DNA of 64,000 nt from Peribacillus simplex (GTDB lineage: Bacteria; Bacillota; Bacilli; Bacillales; DSM-1321): positions 1-64,000 of the forward strand of contig NZ_LNNH01000055.1 in assembly GCF_001542915.1 (NCBI RefSeq). The letters run 5' to 3'. A program made the translations under genes and the position numbers. The notes below the pieces were generated by a model. That model worked only from the letters and a program-made list of their open reading frames with translations. It did not search any database and was not told the DNA's origin. Of this stretch, positions 53,004 through 62,807 are shown piece by piece. Position 1 is the stretch's first letter. Every line of letters begins with the position of its first letter.

Positions 53004-53690
53004 TTATACATTGAATCGATACCCGGCACCCCAAACCGTTTCCAGGTATTTAGGATGTGCCGGGTCTCTTTCGATTTTTTCACGTAATTTTCTAATATGG
53101 ACGGTGACAGTCGAGACATCCGCCGCCGACTCCATTCCCCAATTGCTCTCATATAGTTGCTCCTTGCTCAATACTTGGTTCGGGTGCATCACAAGAAACA
53201 GCAACAAATCGAATTCCTTTGTCGTGAAAGGCACTTCCCCGCCATTGATATGAACTTTACGCGATGACTTATCTATCGATATACCGTGAACGAAAACCGT
53301 ATTTATTTTGGAATGATTCCCTGCCAATCGATCATACCGGGCTAAATGCGCTTTCACTCTAGCAACCAGTTCACTTGGACTAAAAGGCTTTGTGATATAA
53401 TCGTCAGCGCCTAATCCAAGCCCTCGAATTTTATCGATATCCTCCTTTTTGGCGGAAACGATCAATATCGGTATATCCTTGGCAGCTCGTATTTGTTTGC
53501 AAATCTCAAACCCGTTCACGCCGGGAAGCATGATATCGAGAATGATTAAATCGTAGTTTTTTTGAAGGGCCTGCTGAAGTCCTGCATCACCTGTATGCTG
53601 AATGTTGACTATAAAATCATCAATCTCCAAATAATCCCGCTGCAGTTCTGCAATGCTGACATCATCTTCAATAAGTAATATTTTTTTCAT
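53004..53690 (-). CDS. OmpR-family response regulator
   Basis: 228 residues. Receiver domain with acidic pocket 'KILLIEDDVSIAEL', phospho-acceptor Asp in 'YDLIILDIMLPGVNG' and Lys in 'DDYITKPFSPSELVARV'. A winged-helix DNA-binding domain follows ('FTTKEFDLLLFLVMHPNQVL', 'DVSTVTVHIRKLREKIE', 'RGVGYRF'-like 'WGAGYRFNV'). Its ATG overlaps the histidine kinase stop by four bases (ATGA), so the two are translationally coupled. Confidence 0.93.
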   Translation of the reverse strand: MKKILLIEDDVSIAELQRDYLEIDDFIVNIQHTGDAGLQQALQKNYDLIILDIMLPGVNGFEICKQIRAAKDIPILIVSAKKEDIDKIRGLGLGADDYITKPFSPSELVARVKAHLARYDRLAGNHSKINTVFVHGISIDKSSRKVHINGGEVPFTTKEFDLLLFLVMHPNQVLSKEQLYESNWGMESAADVSTVTVHIRKLREKIERDPAHPKYLETVWGAGYRFNV

Positions 53691-55150
53691 GGCTCCTCAC
53701 CTTTCTTTAAGGTAAAGAAGACACTTGTGCCCTTTCCCATCTCGCTTGTAGCCCAAATATCCCCTTCATGCTCTCGTATGATTTGTTTGGCAATCGCCAG
53801 CCCTAAGCCGCTGCCACCAGTCTCTGAATTCCTGGATTGTTCAGCACGGTAAAAGCGATCAAAAATGAAAGGCAGGGCAGAAGGTTCTATTCCTTGGCCA
53901 TTATCCGTAACCTGTACAGCTACATCTTCTTGCCCTTCATGTAAAGCAATGGAAATGTTCACTTTATCCCTCTCCGCATACTTCACGCAATTACTGATTA
54001 AATTAGCCAATACTCGTCTTAATTTTTCCCTATCCGCTGTCACAAATATCGGTTCATACACTTGATTCCATTCAATTCGGGTCCCTTGTTGAAGGAAATC
54101 CAAATGAAATTCTTCCACGTAGTCCCCGATAAATTGATTCATTTCCACAGTTTCAAAAGTGAATGGTTCTTTATTTAAATCCAGCTTGGAGAATAGGAAC
54201 AATTCATCGATCAATGAATCCAAGTCTTTCGCCTTTAAATGGATAGTCGATAAATACTTTTCCATTTTTCGTGGGGTATTGGCGACACCATCTTGTATTC
54301 CCTCAACATATCCGATAATCGAAGTAATCGGCGTTTTCAAATCATGCGAAATATTGGATAGAAGTTCTTTCCTGTTTTCTTCATATTGAAGCTGAATCTT
54401 AACGGATTCTTTTAATTTTATTCTCATTTCATCGAATGTCCGATTTAATTGTCCGATTTCATCATTGGAGGCAGCTTTTATTTCGAAGTTTAAATCTCCT
54501 GATTTGATCCGACTGGCCCCTTCCTTAAGAAGTGAAATGGGTTTGATGATGCTTCTGGAAACTAAATAGTTTAACAGCCCGATAATCATGATGAATAGAA
54601 ATAATAATAGCCCGAATAAAATAGGGAATAACTCCCGAGCCAGCTCGGCAGAGGAACTCACCTTTCTCAACACAAAAATACTTCCTTGGCTTTTATCCGA
54701 GAAATAAAAATCAAATTTGACATATGTGTAAAAAAAATCATCGATTTTAATCGTATCCCTCGTATTGATGTTCGTTTCTTCGAATCCCGGGAGAGACCTG
54801 CCCAGTACCTGATAGTTAAAGGAAAGCGAAGTAAACTCGATCTTCGAATCTTTTCTGACGACGATGTCGATGTCCTTTTGTTTAATTTCCTTCAATTGTT
54901 CTACTTTAAGAAGCTGTTCAGGTTTATGTTTGGCCAAAAGCTTTAAATCAAGAAATGCGGTTTCTTCCACATTCGTCAATGGTTTCTGGACATAAGATTT
55001 TTTGTAAAAATTTTCAATCGAGTTTGCATCGCCTGTTATCGCAAAAATAATTAAAAACCCAGCGACCAATAGCAAGGCGATGGAAAAAAGGATTACTCCG
55101 ACGTAAGATAACAGAAACCTCGTTTTTATCGATATGTCAATCACCTCCAC
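53687..55150 (-). CDS. Sensor histidine kinase
   Basis: 487 residues. Membrane helices at about 12-38 and 182-206 frame an extracellular sensor domain of about 140 residues. A HAMP linker ('SRSIIKPISLLKEGASRIKS') follows, then the H-box 'LLSNISHDLKTPITSIIGYV', N-box 'RRVLANLISNCVKYAE', and the ATP lid 'DNGQGIEPSALPFIFDRFYR' / 'GGSGLGLAIAKQ'. The signal is unknown. The kinase precedes the regulator, the reverse of the usual order. The GTG start at 55150 is weakly supported. Confidence 0.9.
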   Translation of the reverse strand: MEVIDISIKTRFLLSYVGVILFSIALLLVAGFLIIFAITGDANSIENFYKKSYVQKPLTNVEETAFLDLKLLAKHKPEQLLKVEQLKEIKQKDIDIVVRKDSKIEFTSLSFNYQVLGRSLPGFEETNINTRDTIKIDDFFYTYVKFDFYFSDKSQGSIFVLRKVSSSAELARELFPILFGLLLFLFIMIIGLLNYLVSRSIIKPISLLKEGASRIKSGDLNFEIKAASNDEIGQLNRTFDEMRIKLKESVKIQLQYEENRKELLSNISHDLKTPITSIIGYVEGIQDGVANTPRKMEKYLSTIHLKAKDLDSLIDELFLFSKLDLNKEPFTFETVEMNQFIGDYVEEFHLDFLQQGTRIEWNQVYEPIFVTADREKLRRVLANLISNCVKYAERDKVNISIALHEGQEDVAVQVTDNGQGIEPSALPFIFDRFYRAEQSRNSETGGSGLGLAIAKQIIREHEGDIWATSEMGKGTSVFFTLKKGEEP

Positions 55151-55523: not shown

Positions 55524-55955
55524 TTAGTTCTTCTTGGCCAACAATTGTTGCCAACGGGCAAAATTATATCTTTGAACGATGATGATTGGGATATTGAAAG
55601 AGATGGTATAGACTACCATGATCCACCCTGCCCAAACTGGATTCCATACAAAAAAGAAACCAGCTGGAAAGATGGAAAACCAGTGAGTTGATTCTGCCCG
55701 TTTTGTCTCCAACATGACCTTCGTCAAAGAAATTGTATCCGTTCCTTGAAGCTGTTTCTTTTCAAAACCGCGTTTAATTATTTTTGAACCATCCGGTATG
55801 TAATTTTTCCATTTCTCACCTTTTAATCCGCTATATAATATTGTTATGCGCGAATGGTGATTAGGTATATTGACAGTACACAAGGAAATACCCATACCCA
55901 TATGGAAGAAACACCATGCAACGATGTCAAGAATCATGATCCAGTGGTGCACCAC
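55524..55955 (-). CDS. crtO: Carotenoid acyltransferase CrtO-like (glycosyl-4,4'-diaponeurosporenoate type)
   Basis: About 143 residues, with membrane helices near the N terminus and around 'IFPAGFFFVWNPVWAGWIMV'. The stretch 'VMLETKRAESTHWFSIFPAG' and the end 'SFNIPIIIVQRYNFARWQQL' match S. aureus CrtO ('ETKRAELIHW', 'NVPIIIVQRYNR'), which adds the fatty acid in the last step of staphyloxanthin synthesis. A GTG at 55955 or 55952 is preferred because GGAGAAAG precedes it and the N terminus then aligns with CrtO. The frame is open upstream to an ATG at 56012. Confidence 0.8.
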   Translation of the reverse strand: MVHHWIMILDIVAWCFFHMGMGISLCTVNIPNHHSRITILYSGLKGEKWKNYIPDGSKIIKRGFEKKQLQGTDTISLTKVMLETKRAESTHWFSIFPAGFFFVWNPVWAGWIMVVYTISFNIPIIIVQRYNFARWQQLLAKKN

Positions 55956-56045
55956 TTCACTTTCTCCAACCCGCCAGGCAAAAGCCGGTTTAACCGCCTT
56001 GGCCTCATCCACTTAGACAAATGCCAGTCTACATAATCAATCTCG

Positions 56046-56270: not shown

Positions 56271-57776
56271 TTAGCCATGAATGGAATCCTTTTGTACTAT
56301 TTTATCCCGAACTTGTTGGCCGCTTAATGTAACCATCGGCATCCCCCCGCCAGGATTAACGGTACCGCCCACGAAATAAAGGTTATCGTAGCGCTCACTT
56401 TGCTTTGCATGTTTGAATCCTCGGTTCTTTTTACGGTGGGAGACTGTACCATAAATGGATCCGCGATGTGATCCATACCTTCTTTCAATATCATGCGGCG
56501 TCCACATGTCTTCCGTTACAATATTTTGCCGCAAATCAGTCAAGCCCATTTTCTCCAATTTCATCAATACTTTTTCCCGTAGGGCTATGTAATCATTCTG
56601 TGTGAATGGTTTATCTTGAATATGTGGGATATGTGGAAGAATTTTAATATTCTCATGACCTGGAAGTGCTTGAGATGGATCGGTTTTATTAACATTGACT
56701 AAATAAATGGTAGGATCGTCTGGCAGTTCATGGTCACGGAAAACCTTATTCATTTGTTTTTGTAGATTATTAGAGAAAAAGAAGTTATGATGGGCAAGCT
56801 GAGGGTATGTTTTACGCACACCCAAGTGCAGAATTAGACCGGAACTGGAAGGCTCAAACCGTTTTTCAAGCTTCTTGATAAAGTGCTTTCCTTCATCCAA
56901 TAATTTTTCATAGGCTGGGATGACTTCCATATTGGAGATAAAATGTTCCGCCGTTCTCCTCGTCCCATCATCCAGCTCCGCTGCCAAGATTCCCTTTGAA
57001 CCTTCCTTGGTGATGAGTTTTCTGACTGCCATTCCAGTATGTAATTCAACACCTAATTCAGTTGCAAGTTTGACCATACCTTGAGCAATTCGATTCATCC
57101 CGCCAGGTACGTACCAAACACCTTGAGCATGTTGCATATAGATCATCATATTAAGAACGGCAGGAGCGTCGTATGGAGAAGACCCTACATATTTAATAAA
57201 ATAAGCAAGCATATTCCGAAGCTTTGGATGGCTGATCCGTTTCTGGATGGCATCATACATGGTTGAAAATAGATCAAAACCTTTAACCGATTCTATCAGC
57301 CCGTGTTGTTTAAAGATTTCCATCGTCGAATCCAAGCCCTTGGCAAAGTACCCTTCTTCAGTCACTTCATATATTCGCCTTGCATATTCTAAAAAATGTC
57401 CATACTCCTCCATGTCCTTTTCAGACAAGCAAGTATTTTCCTGTAACATCAAATTCAAGTCTCCATATAGATCTATGACCGAATCGTCTGGAAAGAAGGA
57501 TCGCCATTCATGCTTTAAGCGAAGCGTAGGAATATAGTCAGCCATATCGCGGCCGCTTTTTACAAACAATCGTTCAAATATTTGAGGCATGGTCAATATG
57601 GATGGACCAAGGTCAAAACCAAAGCCATCCTGTTCCAATCGATTCAATTTACCACCAAGATGGTCGTTCTTTTCATAAAGTGAAACCTTATATCCACTTT
57701 GCGCCATCGATATGGCGGCTGAAAGTCCTCCCAGCCCGCCTCCGATAACGACGACCGTTTTAGCGGTTTTGGTCAT
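56271..57776 (-). CDS. crtP: Diapocarotenoid oxygenase (CrtP/CrtNb type)
   Basis: About 501 residues, FAD-dependent and related to phytoene desaturases. 'TVVVIGGGLGGLSAAISMAQ' is the dinucleotide-binding motif; 'GFDLGPSILTMPQIFERLF' and the C-terminal 'LYFVGGTVNPGGGMPMVTLS' are typical of the CrtN/CrtP group. It is the better match to CrtP, which oxidises the end methyl group of 4,4'-diaponeurosporene to an aldehyde or acid, because a clear CrtN lies two genes upstream. The start at 57776 (MTKTAKT) follows AAGGGGAG. Confidence 0.82.
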   Translation of the reverse strand: MTKTAKTVVVIGGGLGGLSAAISMAQSGYKVSLYEKNDHLGGKLNRLEQDGFGFDLGPSILTMPQIFERLFVKSGRDMADYIPTLRLKHEWRSFFPDDSVIDLYGDLNLMLQENTCLSEKDMEEYGHFLEYARRIYEVTEEGYFAKGLDSTMEIFKQHGLIESVKGFDLFSTMYDAIQKRISHPKLRNMLAYFIKYVGSSPYDAPAVLNMMIYMQHAQGVWYVPGGMNRIAQGMVKLATELGVELHTGMAVRKLITKEGSKGILAAELDDGTRRTAEHFISNMEVIPAYEKLLDEGKHFIKKLEKRFEPSSSGLILHLGVRKTYPQLAHHNFFFSNNLQKQMNKVFRDHELPDDPTIYLVNVNKTDPSQALPGHENIKILPHIPHIQDKPFTQNDYIALREKVLMKLEKMGLTDLRQNIVTEDMWTPHDIERRYGSHRGSIYGTVSHRKKNRGFKHAKQSERYDNLYFVGGTVNPGGGMPMVTLSGQQVRDKIVQKDSIHG

Positions 57777-57851
57777 TACCTTCACTCCCCTTTTTCCATT
57801 CAAAAATTAAACGATAAACAATAAAGGATTATCTTCATTCACTATCCTTTT

Positions 57852-58733
57852 CTAAGTCGAAGCGGAAGCGAAAACCTTAATTTCTTGTTGAATTTGCTGC
57901 ATCTTCATTGGAGAAATGAAATTCTTCTTAAAAAAACAGTCATATTCATTATCTCTTACGGCGTTTAAGATTCCACGATAAAGACGTGCCGATAGCAAAA
58001 CCTGGAATTGGCTGTCTTTATCAAAATATCGGATCTCTTCTTGAAAGTCATCAAACAACGCTTCTGCACGGCTGGCCATCTTCTCCCAAATCCTGATAAA
58101 GCCCATATTGATCCTGGCTTGTTTAATATCTTCCTCAGTGTACGACTCCGATTCCATCTCGTATAACGGCAAATATATTCGGTTGTTTTTTCTATAGTCC
58201 TCCCCAACATCTCTTAATATATTAGTAATTTGCATAGCGACTCCAAGAGATATCGCTTGTTGGGTAAGATCTTGTTCCGATTCGGAAGCGATGATGGGCA
58301 AGAGCATTAAACCAACCGTTCCCGCTACGTAATAGCTATATTCCTCTACCTGACTCATTGTTTGGGGAATGGAGAAATCAATATCCCTTCTCTGACCTTC
58401 CAGCTGATCAAAGAAAGGCTGAATATCCATTTCATAACGATTAAATACATCTCGTAAAGCCCTCCAAAGCGGGTGATCAATTTCCTTATATGCCTGGAAC
58501 AGGCTTAACTCCTGACTTATACGGTTCCACGCGTTGATTTTTTCTGACCTGGTCCCTCCCAGATCCACACTATCATCGGCACTCCTGCAAAAAGCATAGA
58601 TGGCATAAACGGCGTTTGCTTTCTCCTTCGGTAAGCCTAAAAAAGCAAAATAGAAACTTTTAGAATTCTGCTTGATGATGTCCTCACAATACCGATAATC
58701 TTCATCCAATAGTGTTTGATCAGTCAATCTCAT
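57852..58733 (-). CDS. crtM: Dehydrosqualene (diapophytoene) synthase
   Basis: About 293 residues, all-helical head-to-head prenyl synthase. The two Asp-rich metal sites are 'CRSADDSVDLGG' (D-x-x-x-D) and 'QITNILRDVGEDYRKNNRIY' (D-x-x-E-D). It joins two farnesyl diphosphates to 4,4'-diapophytoene, the first step of C30 carotenoids. The second ATG (58733) is preferred, as GGAGG lies 7 bases upstream of it. It lies 11 bases after crtN. Confidence 0.9.
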   Translation of the reverse strand: MRLTDQTLLDEDYRYCEDIIKQNSKSFYFAFLGLPKEKANAVYAIYAFCRSADDSVDLGGTRSEKINAWNRISQELSLFQAYKEIDHPLWRALRDVFNRYEMDIQPFFDQLEGQRRDIDFSIPQTMSQVEEYSYYVAGTVGLMLLPIIASESEQDLTQQAISLGVAMQITNILRDVGEDYRKNNRIYLPLYEMESESYTEEDIKQARINMGFIRIWEKMASRAEALFDDFQEEIRYFDKDSQFQVLLSARLYRGILNAVRDNEYDCFFKKNFISPMKMQQIQQEIKVFASAST

Positions 58734-58744
58734 CGGCATACCTC

Positions 58745-60283
58745 CTAGTTATTCCCTGCATGTACTGCCTGCTTACTGCCGCGATCATCCAAAATCAGTT
58801 CTTCTGTAGCGATTTTAGCTGAAAGTAATACGATGGGCACTCCGGCACCAGGGTGCGTGCTGCTTCCAGTAAAATACAGATTTTCGCATTTTTTAGCTTT
58901 ACTCTGCGGGCGAAGATGATTACTTTGTGCTAGGTTAGGACGTAAGCCGAAGCATGCACCGTTATAGGCATTGAATTTCGATTCAAAATCAGGCGGTGTC
59001 ATATAGGATTCCGAAACAATTTCATTTTCAATATTTTCAAGACCTTCTATTTTTTTAAGAGCTTCGAACACTTTTGAACGGTAATGACTTATCGTTTCAT
59101 CATTCCATTCGTATTCGGAGGTTGATAGATCAGATACAGGAACTAGAATATATATCCCATCTTTCCCTTCAGGAGCCAATGATGGGTCCATTTTAGAGCC
59201 GAGATAGACATAAAAGGATGGGTCATCTAGAAGCCGTCCATCAAAAATGTCGTTTAAGTTCATCTCCAAACCTTCACTAAATACGAAATTATGGATCGTT
59301 TTTAACGATTCATATTTTCGATCCATTCCCAAGTACATAATAAAACACGAACAAGAGTACTTCATGCTGTCAATTTTTTTATCTGTATACTTGCCTTTCG
59401 ATTTCGTGTCTTTGACCAGATTTTTCATCGCATAGGGAAAGTCGGCATTACAAAGGACATAATCAGAGTGAATTTCTTTATCATCCACTTTAATGCCAAG
59501 GGCCTGCTGATTTTCAATGATTATTTCTTGAACACTCGCGTTATAGTGAACCATGCCGCCCAACTCCATAAACAGCCGTTCCATTGATTGGGCCATCGTA
59601 TACATGCCACCCTTGATGAACCACACGCCATAGAGTAATTCAATCATCGGGATAATGGTATATAAGGAAGGTCCATTATATGGTGAAACACCTATGTATA
59701 AAGTTTGAAAACTAATCATCTGCTTAAGGCGTTCATTTTTCACATATTTTCCAATAAAATGATCGGCATTATCGAATGTTTTCAATTTCAACGCTTGACG
59801 AATCATGAAAGGATTATAGAAATCGGATGCGTGCCGGAATGGGCGTTGAATAAAATGATTTTTTGCAACAATGAAACGTTCATAGATTTTTTGAAGATAT
59901 TTCAGGAAACCTTCTGCATCTTTGTCACTAATGTCCTCCAAGGTTTTCATTAAATCGACTAAGTCTGAAGAAATTTCGTAAGTATCTTCCGCTTTGCTTC
60001 CAAAGAACACGGAATACATCGGATTTAATTTCTCCATTGGGATATAATCATCCGGATTACGGCCTGCCAATTCGAAAATTTCCTGATAAAGCTCTGGCAT
60101 CATGACTATACTTGGTCCTAAGTCGAATTTGTAACCATCCTTTTCAATTTTGTGCATTTTTCCACCCGGTATTGCTTCTTTTTCAAAAAGTTCCACCTGA
60201 TACCCCGCATGCTGCAATCTAATCGCACTTGCCAACCCTGCTACTCCCGCTCCAACAACAATTACCTTCTTTTTATTAATCAT
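58745..60283 (-). CDS. crtN: Diapophytoene (dehydrosqualene) desaturase
   Basis: About 512 residues. FAD-binding 'VIVVGAGVAGLASAIRLQHA', 'GYKFDLGPSIVMMPELYQEI', 'FQTLYIGVSPYNGPSLYTII' and C-terminal 'LYFTGSSTHPGAGVPIVLLS' are the hallmarks of bacterial CrtI/CrtN desaturases. It adds double bonds to diapophytoene to form yellow diaponeurosporene. First gene of the leftward crt row (crtN-crtM-crtP-crtO). The ATG at 60283 follows TTGGGGGAA; a longer frame to 60313 lacks a ribosome site. Confidence 0.9.
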   Translation of the reverse strand: MINKKKVIVVGAGVAGLASAIRLQHAGYQVELFEKEAIPGGKMHKIEKDGYKFDLGPSIVMMPELYQEIFELAGRNPDDYIPMEKLNPMYSVFFGSKAEDTYEISSDLVDLMKTLEDISDKDAEGFLKYLQKIYERFIVAKNHFIQRPFRHASDFYNPFMIRQALKLKTFDNADHFIGKYVKNERLKQMISFQTLYIGVSPYNGPSLYTIIPMIELLYGVWFIKGGMYTMAQSMERLFMELGGMVHYNASVQEIIIENQQALGIKVDDKEIHSDYVLCNADFPYAMKNLVKDTKSKGKYTDKKIDSMKYSCSCFIMYLGMDRKYESLKTIHNFVFSEGLEMNLNDIFDGRLLDDPSFYVYLGSKMDPSLAPEGKDGIYILVPVSDLSTSEYEWNDETISHYRSKVFEALKKIEGLENIENEIVSESYMTPPDFESKFNAYNGACFGLRPNLAQSNHLRPQSKAKKCENLYFTGSSTHPGAGVPIVLLSAKIATEELILDDRGSKQAVHAGNN

Positions 60284-60374
60284 GGTTTCCCCCAATGTCT
60301 TTTTCCATATCACTCATGTAATATTGCCAAATATTTTAATAAGCTTAAGAACTCCTGTAATGTTATTGAGTTAA

Positions 60375-60441
60375 TTATTGCTAGGAAGTTGTTTAGTTGT
60401 CAACCGTTTTGTATAATGTTTTTATACAAACGTTATACAAA
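60375..60441 (-). promoter_or_regulatory. crtN promoter with repeated LitR-type half-sites
   Basis: Minus-strand -35 TTGACA (60398-60403) with a weak -10 (CAATAA, 60375-60380) at 17 bases. Just upstream lie three copies of one 9-mer: TTTGTATAA (60408-60416), and its inverse TTATACAAA at 60422-60430 and 60433-60441. The first two form an inverted repeat with a 5-base spacer. They are placed for repressor or activator binding next to the -35. Confidence 0.65.
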
Positions 60442-60515
60442 CTTATTGTTTTTTTAAAAGCTGACATGTTCACTAGCGAAAATAAGGTTTTTCCTATGTA
60501 CATTCGGCTCGTCGC

Positions 60516-60541
60516 CTTGTACAATGTTATAGGATTTTCAT
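60516..60541 (+). promoter_or_regulatory. Promoter of the LitR-like gene with a further half-site
   Basis: CTTGTACAA (60516-60524) differs by two bases from the TTTGTATAA half-site and overlaps a possible -35 TTGTAC (60517-60522), followed after 18 bases by TTATAT. Autoregulation is likely. Confidence 0.45.
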
Positions 60542-60598
60542 TATATGTTTGAACCGACAGATAATACCTAAAATATTTTGATATAAGGGATGAAAACT

Positions 60599-61519
60599 AT
60601 GAACCATGCCCGTGGTGGCAAGTTTTATATAAAAGACGTTTCTGCTCTTACAGGACTTTCCAAACAAGTGATTCGAAAATGGGAAGAAAGATATGATATC
60701 ATACAGCCTGTTCGCCATGAGAATGGATACCGACTTTACAGCGAGGAAGATATCAACACTCTTTTAACTATTAAATCGCTTCAAAAAAAGGGATTTTCTA
60801 TTAAACAAGCATCTAACCTGGCAAAAGAGAAGCTCGATACGATGGAAAACGCAACGGTTCAAACGAAGACCGCTCTTGACACAGAACTGAATTATTATGT
60901 GATTCAGTTGATGGAAATAGGGTATACGTGTAACGAATTGGATTTACTGATCGTTCTGAAGCAGGCTTATCACTTTTACGGTTTGGAAAAATTTTTGACT
61001 TCTGTCGTCTCACCTTTTTTACAAGAAGTCGGAGATATGTGGGAAAGCGGCGAATGGGATGAATATCAGGAATCTGTTTCGAGTATGGTAGTCAAGGACT
61101 TCCTTGTGCAAATCCGCCGTAACTTTCAATACTCGGATAAAGCGGAATTAGTTTTAGGTGCTTGTCTTCCACATGAATATCATGAAATTCCTGTACACTA
61201 TATTTTGTTACGGTTCATGTTGAGAGGGTGGAAAACGACACTGATCGGAGCTTCACCGGCTCCTGGGTCGATCCAATCACTAATAACACGGTTACAGCCC
61301 GTTAAAGTCCTGCTGTCTGCATCGACGACGCTTCCATTTGAAAAGGATCCTGATTTGCTTAGCACCCTGGATTTATTCGCTGCTGAAAATAAAGAAATCG
61401 AGTTTTATTTAGGAGGAGCGGGTGCAATGCAATACACTAAAGATAAAACGATCAATAATATTTGTGTTACCAACAGCATCGAAGAAATCTTACTTACGAA
61501 GCAAGGGAAGGGATCCTGA
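60599..61519 (+). CDS. litR: MerR-family regulator with B12-binding domain (LitR/CarH-like)
   Basis: About 306 residues. N-terminal MerR helix-turn-helix ('FYIKDVSALTGLSKQVIRKW', 'RHENGYRLYSEEDINTL'), then a four-helix B12-cap domain (about 80-175) and a Rossmann B12-binding domain (about 180-300; 'LGACLPHEYHEIPVHY', 'GWKTTLIGASPAPGSIQSLI', 'FYLGGAGAM'). LitR of Bacillus megaterium and CarH of Thermus are light sensors that use adenosyl-B12 and repress carotenoid genes in the dark. The divergent crt operon fits. Here W-x9-E-H of the cap reads W-x9-E-S and E-x-H-x-x-G reads E-x-H-x-x-P. AAGGGA lies 8 bases before the ATG at 60599. Confidence 0.85.
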   Translation: MNHARGGKFYIKDVSALTGLSKQVIRKWEERYDIIQPVRHENGYRLYSEEDINTLLTIKSLQKKGFSIKQASNLAKEKLDTMENATVQTKTALDTELNYYVIQLMEIGYTCNELDLLIVLKQAYHFYGLEKFLTSVVSPFLQEVGDMWESGEWDEYQESVSSMVVKDFLVQIRRNFQYSDKAELVLGACLPHEYHEIPVHYILLRFMLRGWKTTLIGASPAPGSIQSLITRLQPVKVLLSASTTLPFEKDPDLLSTLDLFAAENKEIEFYLGGAGAMQYTKDKTINNICVTNSIEEILLTKQGKGS

Positions 61520-61917: not shown

Positions 61918-61984
61918 TTAAATTCATAGGTAGAAGCCTTTTCCACCGGTTAAATTTGATAAGAACGAAATCAAAGAAATAAAA

Positions 61985-62752
61985 GAAAGGACAACGGATT
62001 CTGAGAGTGGCTACTAGGTAAACGTTGAACGAACAAAACAGTTGCCTATTCATTCCACGCGCTGCAGACCGCAACGGTTTTGTATTAGGAACGATTGTAA
62101 CACCTGGAAATACACATGATAGGTTTTAGAGCCTCTTATTGATCAAGTGATTGAGAAAGTTGGAAACCCACAAGCTGTTGCCGCAAATGCCGCTTATAAA
62201 ACACCGGCAATTACAAACTATCTATTTAACAAAGAATCATACCGGCTTTACCCTGTACACGTCCTCGAACAGAAGAGGGGTTCTTTCGCAAACATGACTA
62301 GGTATACGATGAACATTTTGATTGTTAGCTTTTAACGTACTCAACAACCAACGAATAAAGAGGGCTATCGTGAGTACAAATCTCCCCAATACACCTGTGC
62401 AACCTGCTCATCTTTATCACGATGTACAGACAACGAAATTCATCAGAAAGTGGTGACACAGCATATCTGGCAAACACATGTGGAAGGTCAGATCATCTGC
62501 GTCATCAACAAGATGGAAACCCTATCTATCCGAAACGTAAAGAAACGATTGAGCGTGTATTCGCAGATGCAAAAGAAATGGTATGCGTTGGACTACTTTA
62601 AGGGGACTTAAAAAATTGTCGTTGCAGGCGATGCTTACTTTCGCTGCCATGAATGTAAAGAAGATGGCCAATTGGACATGGAAAGGTCCAATACTGGCCT
62701 TACAAAGGGGACGAGCCCTGATCTCTAAAATTCAGGCGAACATTCGAAGATA
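61985..62752 (+). pseudogene. IS1182-family transposase, decayed 3' half
   Basis: Pieces of the transposase C-terminal half appear in several frames: 'AADRNGFVLGTIVTPGNTHD' (about 62050-62120), 'PLIDQVIEKVGNPQAVAANA' (about 62132-62195, then AYKTPAITNYLF), 'KRKETIERVFADAKEM' (about 62535-62582), 'LKKLSLQAMLTFAAMNVKKM' and 'ISKIQANIRR' before the stop near 62752. Stop codons and frameshifts interrupt it, and the N-terminal third is missing. The order matches a DDE-type IS1182 transposase (the E-R-x-F-A-D-A-K-E segment holds the catalytic Glu). Confidence 0.82.
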
Positions 62753-62807
62753 ATTTAAAAGGGGTTCGGAGTAATAGATTCCGAACCCCTTTTGTCTACA
62801 AACTGAA

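Follow-up and report, generated by a model that had tools for sequence, protein, structure and literature searches.

A Bacillales lineage of LitR/CarH-like regulators with an altered cap motif and candidate inverted-repeat operators

By sequence, the LitR/CarH-like regulator encoded beside the carotenoid genes of Peribacillus simplex belongs to a Bacillales lineage that is separate from the CarH copies of the same order that carry W-x9-E-H, and we lean, with a little better than even confidence, towards reading it as a cobalamin-dependent, light-relieved repressor of the LitR/CarH kind, with a rebuilt face above the cobalt, for photo-oxidative and porphyrin-stress genes. A CarH-type regulator beside carotenoid genes is the ordinary side of this locus; the new side would be a single branch that combines a rebuilt sensor with inverted operators and with neighbouring genes that were not expected. 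In the dark, a cobalamin-loaded oligomer would sit on two candidate operators, O1 beside the −35 of crtN and O2 at the regulator's own promoter, and would keep both promoters shut; light would break the cobalt–carbon bond, the oligomer would loosen, and the carotenoid genes would be expressed. In other members, regulation of this kind probably extends to an HrtBA-like exporter, a haem-globin chemoreceptor and a photolyase, targets that together would look like a defence response to light and to porphyrins that act as photosensitisers. If this is true, nature offers dozens of B12-light-sensor relatives that are without the cap His and keep the rest of the core, and what that His does for light sensing, for the oligomer state and for the choice of ligand becomes directly testable. 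There would also be new parts for green-light switches, and B12 light sensing would be linked to a haem-type exporter, a link that did not come up in our searches of open-access papers.

The locus and the regulator protein

The window, i.e. the whole 64-kb stretch of contig NZ_LNNH01000055.1 that was analysed, contains the features collected in Table 1; residues are numbered from the ATG at 60599, and papers given by PMC number are cited from excerpts of their text. An alternative ATG at 60590 is in frame with this start, and crtN begins at an ATG at 60283, with the reading frame upstream open as far as a GTG at 60313. A response regulator and a histidine kinase at 53004–55150 (−) adjoin the end of the carotenoid genes. 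On the 3′ side of the regulator, at 61980–62760 (+), decayed-transposase-like fragments can be seen by eye in three frames, with stops. Since Rfam at gathering score gave no match over the whole window, a leader RNA element was rejected.

Table 1. Genes, candidate operators and promoter-like sites at the P. simplex locus (window coordinates)
Feature	Coordinates	Strand	Basis or description
LitR/CarH-like regulator, 306 aa	60599..61519 (stop included; coding 60599-61516)	+	MerR HTH, four-helix cap, Rossmann B12 domain
crtN-type desaturase, presumed target, divergent from regulator	58745..60283	-	TIGR02734 438 bits, cut-off 238.1
crtM-type squalene/phytoene synthase	57852..58739	-	PF00494 E 4.2e-67
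Second CrtN-type desaturase	56271..57803	-	TIGR02734 357.8 bits, cut-off 238.1
CrtO-type glycosyl-diaponeurosporenoate acyltransferase	55524..56012	-	PF18927 E 1.2e-23
Candidate operator O1	60408..60441	.	Inverted repeat TTTGTATAATGTT-N8-AACGTTATACAAA
crtN promoter-like site	60374..60403	-	TTGACA-N18-AATAAT, 11/12 consensus
Candidate operator O2	60497..60525	+	Over regulator's own promoter-like site TGTACA-N17-TACAAT (9/12)

The first-pass annotation of this DNA had called the protein LitR/CarH-like, and both its domain matches and its predicted fold bear this out. Pfam finds MerR_1 (E 1.5e-18) and the cap domain B12-binding_2 (E 5.9e-05), together with a weak match to B12-binding (21.9 bits against a cut-off of 32.1). 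The top NCBIfam match is CarH (NF052513) at 92.6 bits, below the 400-bit equivalog cut-off, which the canonical-type CarH-like copy of the host also fails to reach (142.5 bits). The regulator has the class I LitR/CarH layout, in which an N-terminal MerR HTH is followed by a four-helix bundle and a Rossmann B12 domain at the C-terminal end, whereas the class II LitR of Pseudomonas is described in the excerpt as having the four-helix bundle only, without the Rossmann B12 domain (PMC9758184). An AlphaFold2 model built on 84 aligned rows has a mean pLDDT of 89.4 and a pTM of 0.68; its alignment took in four canonical rows and left out seven rows of the lineage described below, the degenerate L140, L143, L144 and L145 and the near copies L109, L115 and L131. 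The best structural match of the modelled sensor part is the B12 domain of TtCarH (Z 21.9, rmsd 2.6, 196 residues), and further fold matches are photocobilin (Z 20.4), CtMerR (18.5), AerR (17.0), MetH (16.6) and AppA SCHIC (16.5). With TtCarH (PDB 5c8d, 8c31 and others) the regulator shares the order of MerR, four-helix cap and Rossmann domain, the cap Trp and Glu, the cobalt His and a TnnACA near the −35. It differs in having Ser for the cap His, E149 where a His follows the cap Trp in TtCarH, and an inverted repeat where TtCarH has three tandem 11-bp repeats (PMC9304148); the two sensor parts are about 22% identical.

Selection on the gene falls most heavily on the sensor. Against three close relatives, dN/dS is 0.066–0.090 in the sensor part and 0.13–0.28 in the DNA-binding part, with the sensor the more constrained in all three comparisons. 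A pseudogene or sequencing error is ruled out by the open frame and by whole-gene dN/dS values of 0.12–0.13 in the same number of comparisons. A TAG that seemed to lie inside the gene in two relatives (G013 and G017) was also dismissed: the stops are near the ends of the matches, and a profile search finds none inside. Among the best 80 of 236 relatives, the nearest named protein is that of Peribacillus sp. SI8-4, with 88% identity in the best segment and 92% over 289 columns of the tree alignment.

The lineage and its pocket residues

How far does this type of protein extend? Those 236 relatives come from a scan with two peptide patterns over one genome per species (84,980 species), and the best 80 were used. 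The lineage set of 87 rows consists of the window, all 80 scan loci and L031, L034, L037, L038, L040 and L041; nine genes fetched twice were entered once, and a 180-bit floor removed none of the scan loci. The record titles of the 80 scan loci name Bacillales genera. Since the set draws on the best 80 of 236 relatives, more members may exist, and the limit of 35% identity drawn around the lineage is arbitrary. In a separate search of 150 relatives, all 150 had some match at E 0.001 and 15 besides the host had a close match (46–92% identity); a second family, with W-x9-E-H and 25–30% identity, was found in many relatives and in the host. From this search, 34 canonical rows were chosen (31 genes, with three same-gene duplicates), omitting L060, which has a split frame; 14 of them (L017–L030) passed through a script filter on the cap motif, and all 14 passed. 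The host's own canonical-type copy (G000:C54:177461-178252) is 27% identical to the regulator and shares with it, as does the CarH/LitR of B. megaterium, the order of bacteria and the domains; the host copy is flanked by ypbG-like and ypbH-like genes. A profile search of 16 lineage genomes finds a canonical-type or other CarH-like copy (E < 1e-50) in nine and none in seven.

A single branch with an SH-aLRT of 100 splits the 87 lineage rows from the 34 canonical ones in a maximum-likelihood tree built quickly from all 121; this tree comes with a long-branch warning, has many unsettled forks and includes no CarH from other phyla. The lineage is large and coherent and, going by searches of open-access papers, seemingly undescribed.

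The first-pass annotation had pointed to two altered motifs, W-x9-E-S for W-x9-E-H and E-x-H-x-x-P for E-x-H-x-x-G. Both are present, as W148-x9-E158-S159 and E193-Y-H195-E-I-P198, and both are features of the lineage, not private changes or errors. Position 159, the cap His in CarH, holds Ala in 38, Ser in 34, Thr in 8, His in 4, Gly in 2 and Met in 1 of the 87 lineage rows (Ala, Ser or Thr in 80), against His in 32 and Arg in 2 of the 34 canonical Bacillales rows. Position 198 is Pro in 81/87 lineage rows and Gly in 34/34 canonical rows; unlike the regulator, then, the canonical rows have W-x9-E-H in 32/34 and E-x-H-x-x-G in 34/34. The loss of the cap His proved to extend over most of the lineage, whereas the supposed oddness of the Pro fell away: E-x-H-x-x-P by itself means little, because the published classic motif, D/ExHx2G/P-x41-SxT/V-x22-27-GG, allows G or P there (PMC9304148). 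Against that motif, E-x-H-x2-P-x41-S fits, S242 stands where Thr or Val is expected, and the residues before GG number 29 in 84/87 lineage rows as compared with 26 in 34/34 canonical rows and 22–27 in the published form.

The rest of the core is kept. W148 is found in 84 of the 87 rows, E158 in 86, E193 in 87, H195 in 85, S240 in 86, G272 in 84 and G273 in 86. Since the cap Trp and Glu, the cobalt His, the Ser and the Gly-Gly are conserved and the sensor is under strong selection, cobalamin is probably still bound, as the first-pass annotation had expected, and it is the retained Trp, Glu and cobalt His that lead us to infer cobalamin as the ligand. Counting against a cobalamin-light reading is the fact that Wx9EH, termed crucial for CarH photoreceptor activity (PMC9304148), is not intact in the regulator. 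The light signature of B12 domains defined with SignatureFinder comprises GxxW, EH, GxxH and GxxxP together (PMC11796333), and the regulator keeps GxxW only. Among these four motifs only EH cleanly separates the lineage from the canonical rows, because the latter fail others too (28/34 are without GxxxP and 11/34 without GxxH).

Over the tree, two changes suffice for the cap-His state, one loss in the lineage and one change for the two canonical Arg rows. The four lineage rows that have the His are L126 (a Bacillaceae MAG), L129 (Paenibacillus turpanensis), L137 (Brevibacillus fluminis) and L146 (Alicyclobacillus tolerans); a fork with support 85 unites 84 rows, L126 among them on an unresolved branch, and the remaining three His rows fall outside it. 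The pocket has also acquired fixed residues of its own, W153 (86/87), Q157 (87/87) and P220 (86/87); at the W153 and Q157 positions, which are beside the cap motif, canonical rows have Ile or Leu and mostly His. Does the protein then hold a cobalamin other than adenosylcobalamin (methyl-, hydroxo- or reduced), and report light, oxygen or cobalamin status in a manner unlike CarH? Such a sensor would agree with a single, lasting loss of the cap His next to a conserved Trp, Glu and cobalt His, and with the fixed W153 and Q157, and AerR binds hydroxocobalamin under a Trp/Phe cap (PMC9144470). However, Trp131 and Glu141 of TtCarH, which stack on and hydrogen-bond to the adenosyl group, have counterparts here (PMC10442372), and we regard this alternative as unlikely. 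A point against the cobalamin-dependent repressor that we favour comes from a photocobilin, in which the Glu-His pair links two subunits across the dimer, over the adenosyl group (PMC10979010). The loss of the cap His, taken with the mirror-image operator described below, suggests a changed oligomer or upper ligand.

A few rows depart further from the core. The cobalt-His position is Arg in L112 (Anoxybacillus tepidamans) and Asp in L145, and the cap Trp is changed in L140, L143 and L145; these four proteins are possibly natural B12-independent versions or decaying copies.

Half-sites, candidate operators and promoter-like sites

The three exact 9-mers and one variant previously seen in the divergent region were all located: TTTGTATAA lies at 60408–60416 (+), 60422–60430 (−) and 60433–60441 (−), and the variant CTTGTACAATG at 60516–60526. 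The window holds five copies of TTTGTATAA against 1.15 expected, a number reached in 1 of 100 shuffles, and three of the five lie inside 34 bp. When the window is scanned for half-sites, a score of 10 yields 13 matches and two pairs within 40 bp, the pair between crtN and the regulator being the stronger. The lineage half-site, AACATT[AG]TACAAA, contains TnnACA, the published CarH half-site core (PMC9304148).

At O1 an extra TATACA (60423–60428) lies 11 bp ahead of the TATACA at 60434–60439, and the crtN −35, TTGACA (60403–60398), itself fits TnnACA, 12 bp from the nearest half-site core, the TATACA of the O1 arm. At O2, TGTACA at 60497–60502 and at 60518–60523 overlaps the −35 and the −10 of the regulator's own promoter-like site. 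These promoters are likely but not established, because a consensus scan of the region gives five sites and shuffles give a mean of 5.0. We infer repression from the position of the sites beside and over the promoter-like sites.

The cluster before crtN noted in the first-pass annotation is real, of the published TnnACA type and conserved. Using a matrix trained on the same 81 upstream regions that it scored (the window plus the 80 scan loci), with random windows of the same loci as the control, half-sites are found at score 6 in 78/81 upstream regions, 84/405 random windows and 9/20 canonical upstream regions, and at score 14 in 62/81, 5/405 and 2/20, respectively. Inverted pairs 14–16 apart, counted at score 9, occur in 35/81 upstream regions vs 2/405 random windows, including 10/14 carotenoid-linked and 22/39 HrtAB-linked loci. 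Direct pairs at 11 bp occur in 17/81 vs 2/405, excluding the window's own 11-bp pair, whose inner half-site reaches a score of only 8; direct pairs with another close spacing are found in 1/81 and the opposite inverted order in 0/81. Since only 0/14 carotenoid-linked and 1/39 HrtAB-linked loci contribute to those 17, direct repeats with the published spacing do exist in the lineage, mostly beside other genes. Published CarHBm operators, by comparison, have four 11-bp repeats over the −35 or −10 (PMC9304148), whereas the regulator's type is mainly inverted. A TnnACA outside the arm facing the divergent gene is present at 18 of the 35 inverted loci, at 11 bp in 14 and 12 bp in 4, and 17 of these 18 outer sites are within one mismatch of TTGACA. 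At score 9 the loci of the cap-His rows have no site (L129 and L146), one (L126) or two (L137), and at score 6 no half-site was found upstream of L121, L122 or L123.

The DNA-binding part is distinctive as well. The recognition helix reads RKWEERY here and mostly RAWERRY in canonical rows, with K27 in 87/87 lineage rows vs Ala in 33/34 canonical rows, and Glu or Asp at position 30 in 81/87 vs Arg in 31/34; further along, N42 (87/87) and Y44 (81/87) stand against Ser, Ala or Gly and His.

An inverted-repeat operator fits a dimer, and this bears on a second alternative, in which B12 would be bound weakly or not for function, a B12-independent dimer would bind the DNA and the signal would come from another protein. 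CarA of Myxococcus xanthus, a CarH relative, is such a case, having lost part of Wx9EH, kept the B12 motif and become B12-independent (PMC9304148), and within the lineage L112 (the same gene as L039) is without the cobalt His and has an open frame. CarA, however, lost the Trp and kept EH, whereas in the lineage it is the His that has gone, with Trp and Glu still in place; moreover, the retention of W148, E158 and H195 in 84, 86 and 85 of the 87 rows and the tighter constraint on the sensor than on the DNA-binding part argue against a CarA-like protein, which we likewise consider unlikely.

Neighbouring genes and the candidate signal

Neighbours were counted by similarity searches within 6 kb, with the canonical loci and six lineage loci reaching about 5 kb on each side and 5/80 scan loci shorter than 10 kb. 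An HrtA- plus HrtB-like pair is near 40/87 members, a haem-globin chemoreceptor near 28/87, a photolyase near 16/87 and crtN plus crtM near 16/87; within the shorter reach of about 5 kb, the corresponding counts for the canonical loci are 0/20, 0/20, 0/20 and 1/20, with a lone HrtB-like match at 1/20. No crtN plus crtM was found beside 71/87 members, and 20/87 have none of the four neighbour types. At 71/81 loci the regulator is preceded by a divergently oriented gene, and the preceding gene is most commonly an unnamed small membrane protein (20), a crtN-type gene (13), an HrtB-like gene (12) or a HemAT-like gene (10). The small membrane protein (L096:5426-5878 (−) and 22 other loci) has no Pfam or NCBIfam match over the cut-off. 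TspO, considered as an identity for neighbour family 144, was dropped because Pfam and NCBIfam give no match. With carotenoids, photolyase, porphyrin-type export and oxygen sensing as the neighbours, light or photo-oxidative stress is the probable signal for the cobalamin-dependent repressor that we favour.

The exporter and the chemoreceptor raise a further alternative, namely that haem or a porphyrin sits in the B12 fold, as in AppA SCHIC, and that haem is sensed for the HrtBA-like exporter. The frequency of both neighbours in the lineage and their absence within about 5 kb of the 20 canonical loci would agree with this, as would two other observations. Of the 40 HrtAB-linked loci, 1 has a kinase match and 3 have a match to a response regulator, so that an HssRS-type pair is mostly not seen there, and the beta3-alpha3 stretch has 12 residues in 86/87 lineage rows vs 9 in 34/34 canonical rows, three longer. 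SCHIC, however, has its His displaced by two positions and its Trp cap substituted, and a longer, eight-residue beta3-alpha3 loop likely hinders cobalamin in this haem-binding domain (PMC9144470), whereas the regulator has its His in register, keeps the cap Trp and the Ser and Gly-Gly of the tail pocket, and aligns gap-free with TtCarH through the beta3-alpha3 stretch up to residue 252, so that TtCarH has a stretch of at least the same length. For these reasons we treat a haem-filled pocket as the less likely rival and judge it very improbable. Haem export itself is probable: the HrtB-like permease matches a chain of PDB 7w78 end to end (E 5.4e-23), the same chain being present in 7w7d, the HrtBA of C. 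diphtheriae (PMC11442138), yet in 41/42 rows, counted along the alignment, a Gln stands opposite the C. diphtheriae haem ligand Glu219, and the position that precedes this Gln is an invariant Glu. The chemoreceptor matches HemAT (E 7.9e-23).

A broader claim is conceivable, and we hold it as a doubtful one: that this is an undescribed, widespread lineage of Bacillales B12-domain repressors that lost the adenosyl-side His, use mirror-image operators, respond to another ligand or light state (a different cobalamin form or a porphyrin) and are coupled to porphyrin export, oxygen taxis, DNA repair and carotenoids.

Seven cobalamin riboswitch matches and two adenosyltransferase matches in the host genome count in favour of the cobalamin reading. 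B12 economy was discarded as a test of the ligand: adenosyltransferase (PF01923) is present in 66/66 lineage genomes but also in 149/150 relatives; being nearly universal in the order, it says little.

At L122 and L123 the carotenoid cluster is larger and encloses the regulator; it includes several desaturase-like genes and one gene that by eye resembles isopentenyl-diphosphate isomerase. Over the whole host genome, two half-site patterns match the site between crtN and the regulator and one site before an ArsC/Spx-like gene, and reverse-read controls gave 1 and 1 match with the first pattern, as against 0 and 0 with the second. The ArsC/Spx-like site (L151:6175-6193; G000:C17:26174-26192) has, by eye, three TnnACA repeats 11 bp apart, and the CarH of B. 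megaterium is said to control an spx gene.
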